Of a DNA stretch of 64,000 nt, positions 13,860 through 35,208 are shown in pieces. Every line of letters starts with the position of its first letter. Within the stretch, counting starts at the first letter, position 1. The notes under the pieces are model-generated. The model saw only the letters and a list, made by a program, of their open reading frames with translations, had not been told where the DNA came from and made no database searches. The position numbers and the translations under genes were made by a program. Source of the DNA: Lachnospiraceae bacterium (GTDB taxonomy: Bacteria; Bacillota; Clostridia; Lachnospirales; Lachnospiraceae); assembly GCA_024403355.1 (NCBI GenBank), contig JAKSRW010000013.1:1-64000 (forward strand). Direction: 5' to 3'.

Positions 13860-13888
13860 TTGACATAAAATGCTGCTTATGATAGTAT
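13860..13888 (+). promoter_or_regulatory. promoter of the polyamine operon leader
   Basis: TTGACA (13860-13865), a 17-bp spacer and TAGTAT (13883-13888) predict a start near 13895. This leaves about 470 nt of untranslated leader before the first polyamine gene. Confidence 0.7.
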
Positions 13889-14362
13889 CATTTTTGCAAG
13901 CGAACACTATGTTCTTATGCAAAAATCGACTCATTTTGAATGGCCCATACGGACAGGCCGAGTCAGTTGCCGAAGTGGATAATATCCACATTATTGATTG
14001 AGTTAGAAGCTCAAATTTTATAAGTTGATTACTTTATAATCATAGCATTGGAAAGGCAATGCGATCATCTTGTGAAACGGTCAATAAGAGTACGTGACGG
14101 TATATTTTGCATAAAGCATACGTAGATATACGCTGCTTGCAGTAAGTACAGTTATATATTTATGATTATTTACGGATGACGTTATGCGCCATCCGTTTTC
14201 TTTTTGGAAATTAACTGCAGGACATAAGATTGACGAAAAGAGCGACACCGGCTGAATGCAGGTGAACTGCTTAGTGCTTAGCGCGAGGAGAAAGTTTGGT
14301 GAAAAAACTGCACCAATCAGCTCCATGAGCAACTCATTTCATTCGTTGCATTAGGAGGAAAA
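13889..14362 (+). ncRNA. long structured 5' leader of the polyamine operon (candidate riboswitch/attenuator)
   Basis: This 474-nt stretch has no credible gene but many helices. TTTTTGCA/TGCAAAAA (around 13890-13925) encloses GAAC/GTTC. GACTC/GAGTC (around 13930-13966) encloses GGCC/GGCC. GTGGAT/ATCCAC follows. A long-range stem TTATTGAT/GTCAATAA closes a multibranch region with TGAG/CTCA and GCATTG/CAATGC hairpins. An intrinsic terminator lies at 14172-14205, inside the leader. Downstream of it are TTGGTG/CACCAA and GCAAC/GTTGC hairpins, the last just before the SD TTAGGAGG. A terminator between promoter and gene implies conditional read-through, or a separate small RNA. A published RNA motif called ldcC lies upstream of lysine decarboxylase genes in Firmicutes; whether this is an instance cannot be told here. 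Confidence 0.65.
14172..14205 (+). terminator. leader-internal intrinsic terminator
   Basis: ACGGATGACG and GCGCCATCCGT form a nine-pair stem with one A-C mismatch and a small loop, followed by TTTCTTTTT. It is 157 nt upstream of the decarboxylase start, consistent with attenuation. Confidence 0.8.
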
Positions 14363-15820
14363 ATGGAAAACGAAACCTTAGAGCAGATGAGGGCTCCGGT
14401 ATATGAGGCATTGGAGGCTTTTAAGAAAAAAAGAGTAGTACCCTTTGACGTACCGGGTCATAAAAGAGGCAGAGGAAACCCTGAGCTGGTGCAGCTTTTG
14501 GGAGAAAAGTGTGTAGGACTTGATGTAAATTCAATGAAGCCGCTGGATAATCTGGGACATCCTATTTCGGTTATCAGAGAGGCGGAGGAGCTGACTGCGA
14601 AGGCCTTTGGTGCAAGTCATGCATTTTTGATGGTAAACGGTACAACGAGTGCCGTTCAGAGCATGGTGCTTGCCGTTTGTAAGGCCGGAGACAAAATCAT
14701 TCTTCCCAGAAATGTGCATAAGAGCGTAATTAACGCCCTGGTACTGTGCGGAGGAATCCCTGTTTATGTTCAGGCTAAGGTAAATTCCAAAATAGGTATT
14801 GCGCTCGGCGTAGAGGTTGAGGAAATAAAGCGTGTAATGAATGAAAATCCCGATGCGGTGGCTGTATTTATCAATAATCCCACTTATTACGGAATCTGTT
14901 CAAACGTTAAGGAGATAACAAGACTCGCGCATGAACGCGGCATGAAGGTGCTGGTGGACGAGGCTCACGGAACTCACCTTTATTTCGGTGATGAGCTGCC
15001 TGTTTCGGGTATTGCCGCAGGTGCGGACCTTGCAGCCATTTCGATGCATAAGTCGGGCGGAAGTCTTACTCAGAGCTCGATTTTACTCTGCGGTGAGAAT
15101 TTTGATGCTGAATATATGAGACAGATAATTAATCTTACCCAGACTACCAGTGCATCATATCTGCTTCTTTCAAGCCTTGATATTTCCAGAAGAAATCTGG
15201 CGCTCAGAGGCAGAGAGTCCTTTAACAAGGTGAGCAGAATGGCAGAATATGCCAGAAATGAGATTAATGCCATCGGCGGATATTATGCCTACGGAAGAGA
15301 TTTAATTGACGGTGACAGTGTATATGATTTTGATGTTACTAAGCTGTCGGTTTATACAAGAGGTATAGGACTTACCGGTATCGAGGTATATGACCTTCTC
15401 AGAGATGAGTACGATATTCAGATAGAATTCGGCGATATCGGAAACATTCTTGCATATATTTCAATCGGCGACAGAATGCAGGAAATAGAGCGTCTTGTAG
15501 GTGCTCTCGAGGATATAAAGCGCGTATACGGCAAGGAGGACAAGGACCAGTTTTGCGGTGACTTTATACAGCCGGAGGTCGTTCTTTCGCCCCAGAAGGC
15601 CTTTTATTCTCAGAAAAAGCAGGTGTCTTTAGAAGAGGCCGACGGATTTATCTGCGGAGAGCTTGTAATGTGTTATCCTCCCGGAATTCCGATTCTGACT
15701 CCCGGCGAAAGAATAACAAAGGAGATTATTGAATACATTTGCTACGCAAAGGAGAAGGGCTGCTCGCTGCAGGGTACGCTCGACCCGGAGGTTGAGAAGC
15801 TGAATGTAATCATTGAATAA
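14363..15820 (+). CDS. speA: Orn/Lys/Arg decarboxylase family protein, probable arginine decarboxylase
   Basis: The 485-residue PLP enzyme has the fold-I Orn/Lys/Arg decarboxylase core: PFDVPGHKRGRGNP near residue 25, DEAHGTHLYF, and SMHKSGGSLTQSS with the PLP-binding Lys. It is the short Gram-positive form without the N-terminal wing domain. Decarboxylation of arginine to agmatine is inferred from the operon, which also encodes agmatine deiminase and N-carbamoylputrescine amidase; lysine or ornithine cannot be excluded by sequence. ATG 14363 has the SD AGGAGG at 14352-14357, set just after a hairpin. It is the first gene of a six-gene unit and lies behind a long leader with an internal terminator, so RNA-level control is likely. 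Confidence 0.85.
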   Translation: MENETLEQMRAPVYEALEAFKKKRVVPFDVPGHKRGRGNPELVQLLGEKCVGLDVNSMKPLDNLGHPISVIREAEELTAKAFGASHAFLMVNGTTSAVQSMVLAVCKAGDKIILPRNVHKSVINALVLCGGIPVYVQAKVNSKIGIALGVEVEEIKRVMNENPDAVAVFINNPTYYGICSNVKEITRLAHERGMKVLVDEAHGTHLYFGDELPVSGIAAGADLAAISMHKSGGSLTQSSILLCGENFDAEYMRQIINLTQTTSASYLLLSSLDISRRNLALRGRESFNKVSRMAEYARNEINAIGGYYAYGRDLIDGDSVYDFDVTKLSVYTRGIGLTGIEVYDLLRDEYDIQIEFGDIGNILAYISIGDRMQEIERLVGALEDIKRVYGKEDKDQFCGDFIQPEVVLSPQKAFYSQKKQVSLEEADGFICGELVMCYPPGIPILTPGERITKEIIEYICYAKEKGCSLQGTLDPEVEKLNVIIE

Positions 15821-15843: not shown

Positions 15844-16716
15844 ATGAATATGGATATCTGGTTTTCACAGATGGATACGGATAATGTAAAGACAAGTATC
15901 CGTGTCGATAAGCAGCTTTTCAGCCAGGAAAGCGAGTATCAGAGAATAGACGTGTTCCAGTCAAAGGAATTCGGTAAAATGATTGTTCTGGACGGTGAAA
16001 TCATATTCTCAGAGGCTGACGAATTTATTTATAACGAAATGGTTGTACATGTACCGATGGCGGTTCATCCGAACGTAAAGGATGTTCTGATAATCGGTGG
16101 CGGCGACGGAGGCGTTGCGAAGCTTTTTACAATGTATCCCGAAATCGAGCATATAGATGTCGTAGAGCCTGATGAGCTCTTTGTAAAGGTAAGCCGTGAG
16201 TTTTTCCCTGAAACGGCAAAGGGCTTCGATGATCCGAGAGTTCAGATTATTAATATGGACGGTCTCAGATATCTCAGAAGATGTACGGATAAATATGATG
16301 TAATCATTAATGATTCCACAGATCCCTTCGGTCACGCTGAAGGTCTTTTTACAAAGGAATTCTACGGTAACTGCTTCAGAGCACTTCATGAGGACGGAAT
16401 CATGGTATACCAGCACGGAAGCCCCTTCTATGACGAGGATGAGGCGGCGTTCCGTTCAATGCACAAGAAGGTTTACAGCTGTTTCCCGATAAGCCGTGTA
16501 TATCAGGCAAGTATTCCTACCTGTGCGGCAGGCTACTGGATGTTCGGTTTTGCATCAAAGAAGTATCATCCCCTGATTGATTTTAATCCGGTCAGATGGA
16601 AGGCGAGAAATCTTAAAACCTGGTATTATACAACAAATCTTCATCAGGGTGCGTTTATGCTTCCCCGTTATGTTGAGGACCTTCTGGAAGAGGAAGAGAA
16701 TAAGAAAGTTAAATAA
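15844..16716 (+). CDS. speE: spermidine synthase family aminopropyltransferase
   Basis: The 290-residue protein shows the spermidine synthase fold: an N-terminal beta domain, then IIGGGDGGVAKL (about residues 80-91, nucleoside binding), VVEPDE (ribose-binding loop, usually VEID) and NDSTDPFG. It should transfer an aminopropyl group from decarboxylated SAM to putrescine or another amine. No SAM decarboxylase (speD) lies in this operon, while the following two genes encode a dcSAM-independent route to spermidine, so its true acceptor and donor are open. It follows the decarboxylase by 23 nt. The start ATG 15844 has a weak GGGCAGGT SD. Confidence 0.88.
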   Translation: MNMDIWFSQMDTDNVKTSIRVDKQLFSQESEYQRIDVFQSKEFGKMIVLDGEIIFSEADEFIYNEMVVHVPMAVHPNVKDVLIIGGGDGGVAKLFTMYPEIEHIDVVEPDELFVKVSREFFPETAKGFDDPRVQIINMDGLRYLRRCTDKYDVIINDSTDPFGHAEGLFTKEFYGNCFRALHEDGIMVYQHGSPFYDEDEAAFRSMHKKVYSCFPISRVYQASIPTCAAGYWMFGFASKKYHPLIDFNPVRWKARNLKTWYYTTNLHQGAFMLPRYVEDLLEEEENKKVK

Positions 16717-16753: not shown

Positions 16754-18013
16754 ATGAGCAGATTATTAATTATCGGATGCGGCGGCGTTGCTTCCGTTGC
16801 TATTAACAAGTGCTGTCAGAACAGCGAGGTTTTTGATGAGATTATGATTGCCAGCCGTACTGTTTCAAAGTGCGATGCATTAAAGGCAAAGCTTGAGGGT
16901 AAGACAAATACAAAGATTACTACGGCAAAGGTGGATGCCGACAATGTTGCTGAGCTTGTGGCTCTTATTAATTCATATAAGCCCGATGCGGTGCTTAATG
17001 TGGCACTTCCTTATCAGGACCTTACAATCATGGATGCTTGTCTTGAGTGCGGCGTAGATTACATTGATACCGCAAATTACGAGCCTGAGGATACTGATGA
17101 TCCAAACTGGCGTGCAATTTATGAAAAACGCTGCAAGGAGCTTGGTTTTTCAGCATATTTTGATTACAGCTGGCAGTGGGCTTATCAGGAGAAGTTTGAA
17201 AAGGCCGGTCTTACAGGTCTTCTCGGAACAGGCTTTGACCCCGGTGTAACAAGCGTATTTGCCGCATATGCTAAAAAGCATTATTATGATGAGATTCATA
17301 CAATTGATATTCTTGACTGCAACGGCGGCGACCACGGATATCCCTTCGCGACCAATTTCAATCCCGAGATTAATCTTCGTGAGGTTTCAGCTCCCGGTTC
17401 ATATATGGAGAACGGAAAGTGGGTTGAAATTCCGGCCATGAGCATCAAGAGAGAATATGATTTTGAGGGCGTAGGCATGAAGGATATGTATCTTCTTCAC
17501 CATGAGGAGATTGAGGCTCTCGGCAGAAATATGCCTGAGGTTAAGAGAATCCGTTTCTTTATGACCTTCGGACAGAGCTACCTTACACACATGAAGTGTC
17601 TGGAGAATGTCGGTATGCTTTCAACCACACCTGTTAAGTTCAACGGTGTGGATATTGTACCTATCCAGTTTTTAAAGGAGCTGCTTCCCGACCCTGCATC
17701 ACTCGGCCCCAGAACAGTTGGTAAGACAAACATCGGCTGTATCTTTACCGGTATCAAGGACGGCAAGGAAAGAAGCATCTATATTTACAATATCTGCGAT
17801 CACCAGGAGTGCTACAAAGAGGTTGAATCACAGGCTATTTCATATACTACAGGTGTGCCTGCCATGATTGGTGCAATGATGGTTGTATCGGGTCAGTGGA
17901 AGAAGGCCGGAGTATATACAACTGATGAGTTTGATCCCGATCCTTACATGGAGGCTCTTAATAAATGGGGACTTCCCTGGAAGGTTCAGGAGAATCCTGT
18001 ACTTGTTCCCTGA
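16754..18013 (+). CDS. saccharopine dehydrogenase family carboxy(nor)spermidine synthase
   Basis: The 419-residue protein starts with a Rossmann nucleotide-binding motif (LIIGCGGVASVAINKC) and has the saccharopine dehydrogenase-like layout. Mid-protein family patterns include GFDPGVTSVFA and CNGGDHGYPFATNFNPE. In polyamine operons this enzyme (CASDH) condenses L-aspartate semialdehyde with putrescine or diaminopropane and reduces the imine with NADPH, giving carboxyspermidine or carboxynorspermidine. A variant pathway known in some bacteria uses agmatine instead. The adjacent decarboxylase supports the role. ATG 16754 has the SD GAAAGG 7 nt upstream. Confidence 0.9.
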   Translation: MSRLLIIGCGGVASVAINKCCQNSEVFDEIMIASRTVSKCDALKAKLEGKTNTKITTAKVDADNVAELVALINSYKPDAVLNVALPYQDLTIMDACLECGVDYIDTANYEPEDTDDPNWRAIYEKRCKELGFSAYFDYSWQWAYQEKFEKAGLTGLLGTGFDPGVTSVFAAYAKKHYYDEIHTIDILDCNGGDHGYPFATNFNPEINLREVSAPGSYMENGKWVEIPAMSIKREYDFEGVGMKDMYLLHHEEIEALGRNMPEVKRIRFFMTFGQSYLTHMKCLENVGMLSTTPVKFNGVDIVPIQFLKELLPDPASLGPRTVGKTNIGCIFTGIKDGKERSIYIYNICDHQECYKEVESQAISYTTGVPAMIGAMMVVSGQWKKAGVYTTDEFDPDPYMEALNKWGLPWKVQENPVLVP

Positions 18014-18107: not shown

Positions 18108-19256
18108 ATGAGATTAGATGAAGTTCCTACACCGGCATATCTGGCTGATGAGAAGAAATTGAAGGAAAATCTTGAAATATTAAAGCAGGTTCAGGAGCAG
18201 GCGGGCTGTAAAATCCTGCTTGCCCAGAAGGCTTTTTCGATGTTCGCGGAGTATCCTCTGATAGGAAAATACCTGGCAGGTACCACAGCCAGCGGTATTT
18301 ATGAGGCTCGGCTCGGTGCTGAGGAGATGGGGAAGGAAAATCATGTATTTGCCCCTGCCTACAAGGAAAAGGACCTTAAAGAGCTTGTAAAGATATGCGA
18401 TCATATTATATTTAATTCTTTTTCGCAGCTTGAAAAATACGGGGAGCTGATAAGGGCTGAGCATCCTTTCGGAATCGGAATAAGGCTGAATCCCGAATGC
18501 TCGACCCAGGGTGATCATGCGATATATGATCCCTGTGCGCCGGGTTCTCGTTTAGGCGTGACTTTGGCTAATTTTGAAAAAGCAGTTTCAGAAAAGCCGG
18601 AGCTTTTGACTTTGATTGACGGACTTCATTTTCATACTCTTTGCGAGCAGAATTCAGATGACCTGGAGACTACGCTGGCTGCCTTTGAGGAAAAATTCGG
18701 CAAATACCTTCATGGTATGAAATGGCTGAACATGGGCGGCGGTCATCATATAACCAGAGATAATTACGACAGGGAAAGACTTATCAGGCTTATAAAGCAT
18801 GTGAAGGAGACATACGGAGTGGAGGTATACCTGGAGCCGGGCGAGGCAGTTGCACTTAATGCAGGTTATCTTGTGACAGAGGTAATGGATATCGTCGATA
18901 ATGACATCAAAACGCTGATTCTCGATGCTTCGGCGGCCTGTCATATGCCTGATGTGCTGGAAATGCCTTATCGTCCGCCTCTTAGGGACAGCGGCGAAAA
19001 GGGGGAGAAGGCCTACGACTACAGGCTTTCTTCATATACCTGTCTGGCGGGGGATATTATCGGAGATTATTCCTTCGACCATGAAATAAAGGTCGGGGAC
19101 AGACTGATTTTTGAGGATATGGCCATTTATTCGATGGTTAAAAATAATACCTTCAACGGTATCGGCCTGCCTGCGATTATGGCGATGGACGAAAACGGAG
19201 ACTGCAGACTGATAAAAAGCTTCGGTTATGAAGATTTTAAATGCAGACTTTCCTGA
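18108..19256 (+). CDS. nspC: carboxynorspermidine/carboxyspermidine decarboxylase
   Basis: The 382-residue enzyme belongs to the alanine-racemase-fold (fold III) decarboxylases. It has a PLP Lys in ILLAQKAFSMF (about residue 40), GIRLNPECS, GLHFHTLCEQ, a glycine-rich phosphate loop in NMGGGHH and a C-terminal LEPGEAV region. It removes the carboxyl group from carboxyspermidine or carboxynorspermidine to give spermidine or norspermidine. It pairs with the preceding dehydrogenase; together they need no decarboxylated SAM. ATG 18108 has the SD TAGGAG 11 nt upstream. Preference for the spermidine product is inferred because the operon makes putrescine. Confidence 0.92.
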   Translation: MRLDEVPTPAYLADEKKLKENLEILKQVQEQAGCKILLAQKAFSMFAEYPLIGKYLAGTTASGIYEARLGAEEMGKENHVFAPAYKEKDLKELVKICDHIIFNSFSQLEKYGELIRAEHPFGIGIRLNPECSTQGDHAIYDPCAPGSRLGVTLANFEKAVSEKPELLTLIDGLHFHTLCEQNSDDLETTLAAFEEKFGKYLHGMKWLNMGGGHHITRDNYDRERLIRLIKHVKETYGVEVYLEPGEAVALNAGYLVTEVMDIVDNDIKTLILDASAACHMPDVLEMPYRPPLRDSGEKGEKAYDYRLSSYTCLAGDIIGDYSFDHEIKVGDRLIFEDMAIYSMVKNNTFNGIGLPAIMAMDENGDCRLIKSFGYEDFKCRLS

Positions 19257-19286: not shown

Positions 19287-20444
19287 TTGATTTACGATAC
19301 AACACCTAAGGCCGACGGCTTCAGAATGCCGGGCGAATTTGAAAAGCAGCGGGGCTGCATAATGATATGGCCGGAACGTCCCGGTTCATGGCCGTTTGGG
19401 GCAAAGAAGGCACGCGAAGCCTTTGCGAATGTAATAAAAGCGATAGCGAAAAGCGAGAAGGTATTTCTGGCTGTAAATGAGCGCACAAGAGCATCGGCAG
19501 AGGCGATGCTTGCGGGAAATTCAAATGTTATTTTATTTGATGCGGAGACAGACGATGCCTGGGCACGGGATGTCGGACCGACCTTTCTGGTAAATGATAA
19601 GTCTGAGCTTCGTGCGGTTAACTGGGAATTTAATGCCTGGGGCGGAGCTTATAACGGCCTGTATGCTTCCTGGGATAAGGACAATGCCTTTGCTATGAAC
19701 TTTATTTCTTCGGTAACGGGAGATAATTCAGACAGCGCTGCGGCTGAGGCCTTCGGGAAAAAGAAATGTGATATCTACGACGCTGCGCCTTTTGTGCTTG
19801 AGGGCGGTTCGATTCATACTGACGGCGAAGGTACCGTGATTGTGACGGAAAGCTGTCTGCTCAGTAAGGGCCGAAATCCTTCCATGACAAAGTCTGAAAT
19901 AGAGGATAAGCTGAAGGAATACCTGGGTGCAGAGAAGGTTATCTGGCTTCCGTATGGCATCTATAACGATGAAACCGATGAGCATGTAGACAATGTATGT
20001 GCCTTTGCAGGACCTGCAGAGCTGCTGCTTGCATGGACTGACAATGAGGACGATCCTCAGTACGAAATGTCCTTGGCGGATTTAAAGCTGCTTGAGGCTG
20101 AAACAGATGCTAAGGGCAGGAAATTTACAGTGCATAAGCTTCCCATACCGGATAATTGCATATCTATCCGTGAGGAGGATCTTGAGGGCTACGAATTCGA
20201 AGAGGGTGAGGACACCCGTGAGGTCGGAGAGCGACTTGCGGCTTCATATGTGAATTTTTATATTTCAAACGGTGCGGTTATTATGCCTGCTTTTGGCGGA
20301 AGCAACAGTGAAAGCGATAAAAGAGCGGCTAATATAGTTAAGGAAATCTTTACGGACCGTGAGATAATTATGGTTGATGCGCTTGATATTCTTTTGGGCG
20401 GAGGAAATATTCACTGTATTACGCAGCAGATTCCTTTTGCATAA
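19287..20444 (+). CDS. aguA: agmatine deiminase
   Basis: The 385-residue protein matches the peptidylarginine-deiminase-like agmatine deiminase family: an N-terminal [54 protein letters not shown] and a C-terminal [13 protein letters not shown] with the nucleophilic Cys. It converts agmatine to N-carbamoylputrescine and ammonia. The start is TTG 19287, with GAGAAAGG upstream, because the next ATG (19326) would cut into the conserved N-terminal segment. It follows the decarboxylase by 30 nt and precedes AguB, completing the agmatine-to-putrescine branch. Confidence 0.95.
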
Positions 20445-20545: not shown

Positions 20546-21421
20546 ATGAAAAATCTGACAGTTGCAGCAATTCAGATGCAGTGCAGCACTGTAGTGGAGG
20601 AAAGTCTTAAAAAGGCTGAGAAAATGGTCAGGGAGGCAGCGGCAAAGGGTGCACAGCTGATTCTTTTACCTGAGCTTTTTGAGCGTGAATATTTCTGCCA
20701 GCAGAGGCGTTATGATTTTTACAAATATGCTCTTCCTACAGAGGAAAATCCTGCTGTTCAGATGGGTATGAGGCTGGCAAAGGAGCTTTCTGTAGTGCTT
20801 CCGATAAGCTTTTACGAGCGTGACGGAAATGTACTTTACAATAGCATAGCGTGTATCGATGCGGACGGAAGAAATCTTGGCGTTTACAGAAAAACTCATA
20901 TTCCGGATGATCATTTTTATCAGGAAAAGTTCTATTTTACACCCGGAAATACAGGCTTTAAGGTATTTAATACAAAATACGGCAGAGTAGGAATAGGTAT
21001 CTGCTGGGACCAGTGGTTCCCTGAAACAGCACGTTCACTGGCTGTACTTGGCGCTGAGATAATTCTTTACCCTACGGCTATCGGTTCAGAACCCATTCTT
21101 AACTGTGACAGTATGCCTCACTGGCGCCGAACCATGCAGGGACATTCTGCGGCAAATATAATTCCTGTGGTTGCGGCTAACCGCATAGGCCTTGAGACTG
21201 TGGAAGCGAGCGAAGAAAACGGCGGACAGAAGTCTTCACTTTTGTTCTACGGTTCTTCATTTATGACCGATGAAACAGGAGATATTCTTGAAAATGCATC
21301 CAGAGACAAGGAAGAGATTTTACTTCACAGCTATGACCTTGACACAATAGAGGAGAACAGGCTTTCATGGGGACTTTTCAGGGACAGAAGACCGGACTGC
21401 TACAAAATTATAAGTGAATAA
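20546..21421 (+). CDS. aguB: N-carbamoylputrescine amidase
   Basis: The 291-residue nitrilase-superfamily protein shows the catalytic triad: Glu in LPELFEREYF, Lys in RKTHIPDD and Cys in GICWDQWFPE. The YFCQ and FYQEKFYF segments are typical of AguB. It hydrolyses N-carbamoylputrescine to putrescine, CO2 and ammonia in the cytosol. The SD GGAGGT (20530-20535) lies 10 nt before ATG 20546. A 101-nt gap from aguA holds no gene and no clear terminator, so this is taken as the last gene of the polyamine operon; A/T-rich repeats and a terminator follow. Confidence 0.95.
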   Translation: MKNLTVAAIQMQCSTVVEESLKKAEKMVREAAAKGAQLILLPELFEREYFCQQRRYDFYKYALPTEENPAVQMGMRLAKELSVVLPISFYERDGNVLYNSIACIDADGRNLGVYRKTHIPDDHFYQEKFYFTPGNTGFKVFNTKYGRVGIGICWDQWFPETARSLAVLGAEIILYPTAIGSEPILNCDSMPHWRRTMQGHSAANIIPVVAANRIGLETVEASEENGGQKSSLLFYGSSFMTDETGDILENASRDKEEILLHSYDLDTIEENRLSWGLFRDRRPDCYKIISE

Positions 21422-34620: not shown

Positions 34621-34653
34621 AAAGTTGTTAGATTCATTGCATTAGGAGGAAGA

Positions 34654-35208
34654 ATGCGAGTAATTTCAGGAAAGGCCGGAAGACTTCTGCTTGTCACACC
34701 AAAGGGACTGGCGGTAAGACCGACCACGGACAGAATAAAGGAAACACTTTTTAATATAATAAATCCATATCTGTTTGAATGTGAGTTTTTGGACCTCTTT
34801 GCGGGTTCGGGTGCCATTGGAATAGAAGCACTCAGCCGCGGCGCCGCAAAATGTGTATTTGTGGAAAACAGCCGCGAGTCAAAGGACTGCATTGAGAAGA
34901 ATCTGAAAAGCACAAGGCTTGAGGAGAATGCAGAGCTTTTGTTCAGAGATGCGGTCATGGCAATTCCGGTGCTTTACAATCAGGGAAAGCGCTTTGATAT
35001 CATTTTCATGGACCCGCCCTATAATATGGAGCATGAAAAAAAGGTGCTTGAGCAGCTTGAAAAGACACGTATTCTTAAGGAAGACGGAATGATTATCGTA
35101 GAGGCTTCTGCCGATACTGATTTCTCTTATATTGAGGACAGCTGCTTTACGATTACCCGTGAAAAAAAATATGGCTCAAATAAGCATATTTTTATTGCAT
35201 ACAAATAA
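34654..35208 (+). CDS. rsmD: 16S rRNA (guanine(966)-N(2))-methyltransferase RsmD
   Basis: The 184-residue protein begins MRVISGKAGRLLL, with the RsmD pattern VRPTTDRIKETLFNII, the SAM-binding LDLFAGSGAIGIEALSRGA and the catalytic MDPPY motif for exocyclic amine methylation. It methylates G966 of 16S rRNA in the small subunit. ATG 34654 follows the strong SD TTAGGAGGAAG. The 18 nt before and over the start (TTGCATTAGGAGGAA...) also occur before the polyamine decarboxylase gene. It precedes coaD, a gene order common in Firmicutes. Confidence 0.95.
   Translation: MRVISGKAGRLLLVTPKGLAVRPTTDRIKETLFNIINPYLFECEFLDLFAGSGAIGIEALSRGAAKCVFVENSRESKDCIEKNLKSTRLEENAELLFRDAVMAIPVLYNQGKRFDIIFMDPPYNMEHEKKVLEQLEKTRILKEDGMIIVEASADTDFSYIEDSCFTITREKKYGSNKHIFIAYK

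Follow-up and report, generated by a model that had tools for sequence, protein, structure and literature searches.

What decides whether RNA polymerase passes a terminator that lies inside the leader of a polyamine operon? This question is raised by a 64,000-nt stretch of DNA from a Lachnospiraceae bacterium (hereafter the window), in which an operon with the gene order speA-speE-CASDH-nspC-aguA-aguB starts on the + strand at the speA ATG at 14363. The first controlled gene, speA (14363–15820), matches Pfam OKR_DC_1, and from the operon context we take it to be an arginine decarboxylase within the Orn/Lys/Arg decarboxylase family. NCBIfam and ORF analyses assigned the genes behind it, on the same strand, as speE (15844–16716), a carboxynorspermidine/carboxyspermidine synthase-like gene (CASDH; 16754–18013), nspC (18108–19256), aguA (19287–20444) and aguB (20546–21421); the route inferred from this gene content leads from arginine through agmatine and putrescine to spermidine. 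The answer to which we incline, by a modest margin and by inference from the sequences, is that the leader is a riboswitch-type OFF transcription attenuator sensing spermidine or a close polyamine.

The leader and its internal terminator

The initial annotation of this locus had placed a promoter at 13860, about 310 nt of structured leader behind it, an intrinsic terminator at 14172–14205, and a further 157 nt of hairpins before the decarboxylase gene; the first three of these claims held, and the last held in part. The promoter-like site (13860–13888, + strand; -35 TTGACA at 13860–13865 and -10 TAGTAT at 13883–13888) has a 17-nt spacer and an extended TG, agrees with the consensus at 10 of 12 positions, and was the sole + strand site found by a pattern scan within 13–15 kb. 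Promoter scans are weak evidence on their own; in relatives, too, a promoter-like site occupies the equivalent position, just 5' of the helix P1 described below. Folding of 13903–14215 gave z = -3.66, with none of 100 dinucleotide shuffles equally stable, and folding of 13895–14380 gave z = -3.59, again with 0/100 shuffles equally stable. The terminator, also on the + strand, is composed of the hairpin ACGGATGACG-TTATG-CGCCATCCGT (14172–14196) and a T-rich tail reaching to 14205, and was overlooked by a simple pattern scanner, for which its bulged stem is the apparent cause. The predicted start and the terminator are ~310 nt apart, giving a predicted terminated RNA of ~311 nt. Between the terminator end and the speA ATG are 157 nt, the final 77 nt of which belong to a dispersed repeat that is treated separately below.

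A conserved RNA larger than its Rfam match

No Rfam family matched anywhere in the 64-kb window at the gathering threshold. A relaxed-threshold search assigned 13927–13973 (+ strand) to RF02440 (SpF59_sRNA, ldcC RNA) with 30.3 bits (E 0.0021), which is under the gathering cut-off of 37.2 bits. The earlier suggestion that the leader might be an ldcC RNA was still right in essence: the match is sub-threshold in the window, relatives exceed the cut-off in the corresponding position with as much as 71.9 bits, and a larger core lies outside Rfam. The hallmarks of RF02440, namely a conserved CGGACAG loop, a closing helix and UGCCGA, are present in the window, where P2 (GACUC/GAGUC, 13928–13932 with 13960–13964) closes a loop with AUACGGACAG and is followed by UGCCGA; the arm also fulfils the location criterion of the family by sitting upstream of a decarboxylase gene, speA. 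P2 covaries in relatives (GACC/GGUC, GCCC/GGGC, GGACC/GGUCC and GAUCC/GGAUC, beside GACUC/GAGUC in the window). Above-threshold RF02440 matches occur in 10 of 61 genomes of relatives and in 47 of 299 same-family genomes, and in nearly all loci with a recognisable gene, what comes immediately downstream is either speA or a speD ORF with speA behind it. The statement that T-box, lysine, guanidine-I, TPP and SAM signatures are not seen held as well: T-box, lysine, guanidine and TPP riboswitches had no Rfam match in the window, nor in the leader at the relaxed threshold, and the SAM clan had none in the window at gathering, nor in the leader up to E 10. Weak leader matches to sRNA71, STnc390, the L20 leader and snoRNAs were rejected; they were far under their gathering scores and fell on the terminator or on AT-rich sequence.

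The RF02440 model has 54 positions and covers this arm only. In an alignment of the leaders, conservation does not stop at the RF02440 hairpin but runs on for ~120 nt on its 3' side, where TATTGA, TTTT.TA, TTGT.AAA and TCAATA are invariant; this core, the helix P1 and the expression platform are all outside the model. In the window the conserved 3' core, defined by our model R1 and by covariation, occupies 13968–14091 of the + strand and comprises P3 (13975–13989), P4 (13991–13997 with 14081–14087), P5 (13998–14014), P8 (14022–14028 with 14065–14071), P6 (14027–14041) and P7 (14045–14062). The whole candidate aptamer, from P1 to P8, is ~200 nt long (13915–14114, + strand) and is closed by P1, in which UUAUGCAAAA (13915–13924) pairs with UUUUGCAUAA (14105–14114). 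The sequence of P1 varies among relatives with its pairing kept, as in GCAAAUAU/AUAUUUGC and AGCAAUUAU/AUGAUUGCU.

Model R1, made from the 3' domain only of 34 relatives with the window excluded, finds the window with 106.4 bits (E 1e-20) as its single match in 64 kb. Big inserts occur in variable loops among the 51 long-form leaders, and the covariation analysis therefore relied on members free of inserts and on an alignment fitted with the CM. Across the 55 sequences of a structural alignment, pairing holds in 90% of cells, both sides have changed in 18 of 31 pairs versus 11.1 in shuffles, and double-change cells number 149 versus 51 in shuffles; when the alignment was slid as a control, pairing dropped to 27–43%. 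This alignment is fitted to the structure; an unfitted alignment gave 85.9% pairing, versus 82.0% when shuffled and 27–45% when slid. These comparisons show a conserved, covarying, aptamer-like structure in the 5' leader.

The ldcC/SpF59 arm is an optional part of this RNA. Among 67 loci with sufficient upstream sequence, taken from the 3'-core pattern scan described below, the CGGACAG arm was found in 41 and was wholly missing in at least 15, where P3 comes directly after P1; other arm variants were found in 11, including several from Bacillaceae whose apical loop differs. Eleven apparently armless loci had no Rfam match within the RNA at the gathering score, and a permissive Rfam search of one armless locus gave no meaningful match. 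Because the armless RNAs match nothing there, we regard the ldcC hairpin as an accessory arm of a universal core that is absent from Rfam 15.

Two structural variations may be recorded here. In the genus of the window, a shortened RNA (loci L057–L064, L073 and L080) has lost P5–P8 and retains a 7-nt complementarity between core and terminator arm (UAACAUC with GAUGUUA). In most leaders of the series L084–L149, a conserved UAUAUAGACUCU is present just 3' of P1, much less clearly so in the window, and it could possibly pair with AGAGU after P4.

Terminator and antiterminator

In 69 of 76 leaders, automatic calling placed a strong intrinsic terminator after the RNA and ahead of the first gene; seven leaders were missed. 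The calls for L093, L099 and L133 were incorrect or questionable, and these three were excluded from the swap test below together with the near-duplicates L142 and L144. The 5' arm of the terminator (14172–14181 in the window, + strand) is complementary to the 3' strand of P8 plus the conserved UUGUG of the core, so that the strand UCAUCUUGUGAA (14065–14076, + strand) has this arm as its alternative partner, forming an antiterminator. The core strand varies by group, for example CAUCAACUU, CAGACUU, CAUCAUCUU, UAUCACUU and CGACAUUU, and the terminator arm varies alongside.

We examined this concerted variation by swapping partners among leaders. Own partners paired at -13.8 kcal/mol versus -9.7 kcal/mol for swapped partners in 64 leaders (0/20,000), and at -13.3 versus -9.1 kcal/mol when 41 distinct strands were used. 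With one leader per cluster, at less than 60% identity, 18 leaders gave -12.8 versus -8.9 kcal/mol (sd 0.57, 0/20,000), and a control strand of the same RNA showed no effect in this test (-8.0 versus -8.2). An independent set of loci gave -14.3 for own versus -12.3 for swapped partners (0/20,000). Such tests are partly inflated by shared ancestry, an effect that the use of dissimilar leaders reduces but does not remove. In the window itself the antiterminator pairing is bulged, at -11 to -13 kcal/mol, and is weaker than that of many relatives. The terminator and the covarying antiterminator are mutually exclusive structures and make up a riboswitch-like platform, which is shown at the sequence level only; their covariation supports a switch between termination and antitermination. 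P8 excludes the antiterminator and the antiterminator excludes the terminator, and therefore stabilisation of the aptamer should favour termination.

Distribution and associated genes

The pattern TTGTGAAACNNTCAATAAGAGTNGTAAAAGTA, which describes the 3' core only, was scanned over 84,980 GTDB species genomes and found at least 120 stretches, 80 of which were analysed. The RNA occurs in Paenibacillus, Bacillus, Neobacillus, Heyndrickxia, Acetobacterium, Oscillospiraceae, Lachnospiraceae and further groups. When 398 Bacillota genomes were sampled, RF02440 was found in 19 and R1 in 20, largely the same genomes. The first recognised gene behind the RNA in a first set of 78 loci was speA in 47, speD in 23, CASDH in 7 and speE in 1. 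In the independent set of 80 loci it was speA in 27, speD in 26, CASDH in 22 and potABCD-like in 2; three loci were cut off too early, and all 77 scorable ones precede polyamine genes, 75 for synthesis and 2 for potABCD uptake. At these last two (L184 and L246, RNA on the - strand), the RNA is upstream of potA, potB and genes resembling potC/potD, a spermidine/putrescine ABC transporter.

The operons are of the types speD-speA-speE-x-CASDH-nspC, speA-speE-CASDH-nspC-aguA-aguB, and CASDH-nspC alone, and the gene sets include two routes to spermidine. In one genome (G007, locus L159) the operon is split into speA and speE-CASDH, each with its own RNA (at ~3560 and 11336). In the gene neighbourhoods examined, we saw no regulator gene that recurs beside the RNA. 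These gene arrangements share a single end product, spermidine; arginine, agmatine and SAM are not common to them. Because the RNA is found only before genes for polyamine synthesis or uptake across Bacillota, we infer that it senses a polyamine such as spermidine.

A species-specific repeat before the start codon

The last 77 nt before the speA ATG (14286–14362, + strand) are a copy, with the first palindrome missing, of a repeat dispersed in this genome, and at its end this copy carries a Shine-Dalgarno of its own, separated from the ATG by 5 nt. The genome gave 44 matches in a first search and 56 by pattern (0 with the reversed pattern as control), and 57 copies were analysed (that of the window and ~56 elsewhere, L009–L047 and L161–L173); tandem copies exist. 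A full copy is ~93 nt long with a mean column identity of 93%, and consists of a 24-nt palindrome, a second hairpin, and a hairpin in which CUCC pairs with GGAG, part of a Shine-Dalgarno; copies have two or three hairpins. When counting was restricted to ORFs that span 50 codons or more, or that run off the end of the locus, a start codon followed within 13 nt in 43 of the 57 copies, mostly exactly 5 nt after GGAG, versus a background of ~1% of window strand positions with a start at +5. The repeat adjoins the start codons of many unrelated genes, and because many of its left flanks resemble the gene's own Shine-Dalgarno, it was apparently inserted between that element and the start codon. No copy was found among 40 relatives, of which 23 belong to the same genus, and its exact core had no match in the GTDB species scan. 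As shown in the relatives examined, the repeat is species-specific and is neither part of the RNA switch nor shared leader sequence; possibly it sets speA translation. A coding reading, with two chained mini-ORFs, was rejected; indels among copies break the first frame, and structure is the likelier constraint. A small element has put its own ribosome-binding site before dozens of genes in one genome. At 34632–34656, a short sequence (TCATTGCATTAGGAGGAAGAATG) partly matches the repeat at its 3' end, and here too a start codon follows directly.

Proposed mechanism and alternative explanations

In the mechanism that we propose, the ~200-nt candidate aptamer (P1–P8, with the ldcC/SpF59 arm optional) would fold first. 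Without ligand, the 3' strand of P8 (UCAUCUU) would pair with the terminator 5' arm as the antiterminator, and polymerase would read into the operon. Spermidine or a close polyamine would stabilise the aptamer, P8 would keep its 3' strand, and the terminator would form and release the ~311-nt RNA, so that polyamine synthesis and, in relatives, polyamine uptake as well would be switched OFF. The identity of the ligand, its direct binding and effect on expression, and the OFF direction are all inferred, without binding or expression data, and another metabolite or a protein remains possible as ligand. Polyamines, arginine, lysine and agmatine had been named as natural candidate signals at the outset; a polyamine is now favoured and the other three are unlikely, given that the RNA also stands before CASDH-nspC on its own and before potABCD.

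The same attenuator might possibly respond to another molecule of the pathway, such as putrescine, agmatine, carboxyspermidine, or S-adenosylmethionine or a derivative; the operons encode enzymes that make or use each of these, and the first gene is frequently speD. However, enzymes of agmatine, arginine or SAM are missing at the loci with CASDH-nspC alone or with potABCD only, and putrescine as an OFF ligand would make little sense, repressing its own consumption by CASDH-nspC. It is less likely that a protein, polyamine-responsive or another antiterminator or terminator protein, binds the conserved RNA in place of a metabolite. Protein-bound leaders such as those of PyrR are known in Bacillota, and the present sequence tests cannot tell a protein from a metabolite; yet ~200 nt with several helices and many invariant unpaired positions look more like an aptamer than a short protein site, and no regulator gene was seen to accompany the RNA regularly.

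We consider two further explanations very unlikely. The ~310-nt terminated RNA could be mainly a trans-acting small RNA, since the pneumococcal F59/srn235 is listed among sRNAs, with a lung phenotype (PMC4387999), but both the strict placement immediately 5' of polyamine genes throughout Bacillota and the antiterminator/terminator covariation are features of cis action. Attenuation could also depend on translation of a leader peptide, and several short ORFs do lie within the leader; all of them, however, lack stretches of diagnostic codons such as those for arginine or lysine. What is conserved in the core is structure, with hairpins whose differing lengths disrupt reading frames, and RNAs without the arm cannot retain the overlapping 5' ORFs. 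Attenuation by a polyamine-sensing RNA remains our preferred reading.

Comparison with known systems

The odc1, potE and speF RNA motifs are likewise conserved leader RNAs before polyamine genes, but they differ from the present RNA in their described structures and host groups and had no Rfam match in the window. The leader resembles RF02440 itself, with the window hairpin carrying CCAUACGGACAG and UGCCGA directly upstream of a polyamine decarboxylase gene. The namesake of this family, F59 of Streptococcus pneumoniae (also named SN20), is located at 869510–869591 between SP0915 and SP0916 (PMC3395615), and srn235/F59/Spd_sr49 is given as 869478–869804, 327 nt (PMC12323649). SP_0916 heads the pneumococcal polyamine operon. 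F59 starts 32 nt into the 327-nt transcript, and the corresponding values in the window are similar, at about 32 and 311 nt. The difference is that F59 is catalogued as a trans sRNA; by analogy alone, it may possibly be mainly a terminated leader, in which case this pneumococcal "virulence sRNA" would act in cis.

No description of the present RNA as a riboswitch was found in the literature searched, which excluded the 2017 paper on the ldcC motif, and the published motif may already include part of the core. A bolder reading, which we could as readily defend as doubt, is that this RNA is a second widespread class of spermidine riboswitch, unrelated to the SAM-I variants, with a core not in Rfam, an optional ldcC/SpF59 hairpin, and F59 as a terminated leader. 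If this is true, direct sensing of polyamines by RNA would be common in Bacillota, and an orphan RNA gains a testable list of ligands and an expression platform. The sole class of spermidine riboswitch in the literature searched is a rare SAM-I variant, for which spermidine-triggered termination is established, with 13 examples (PMC10853860). The present RNA resembles it in the polyamine genes downstream and in the terminator-based OFF platform proposed here, but has another aptamer and is found in more than 120 stretches as compared with those 13 examples.
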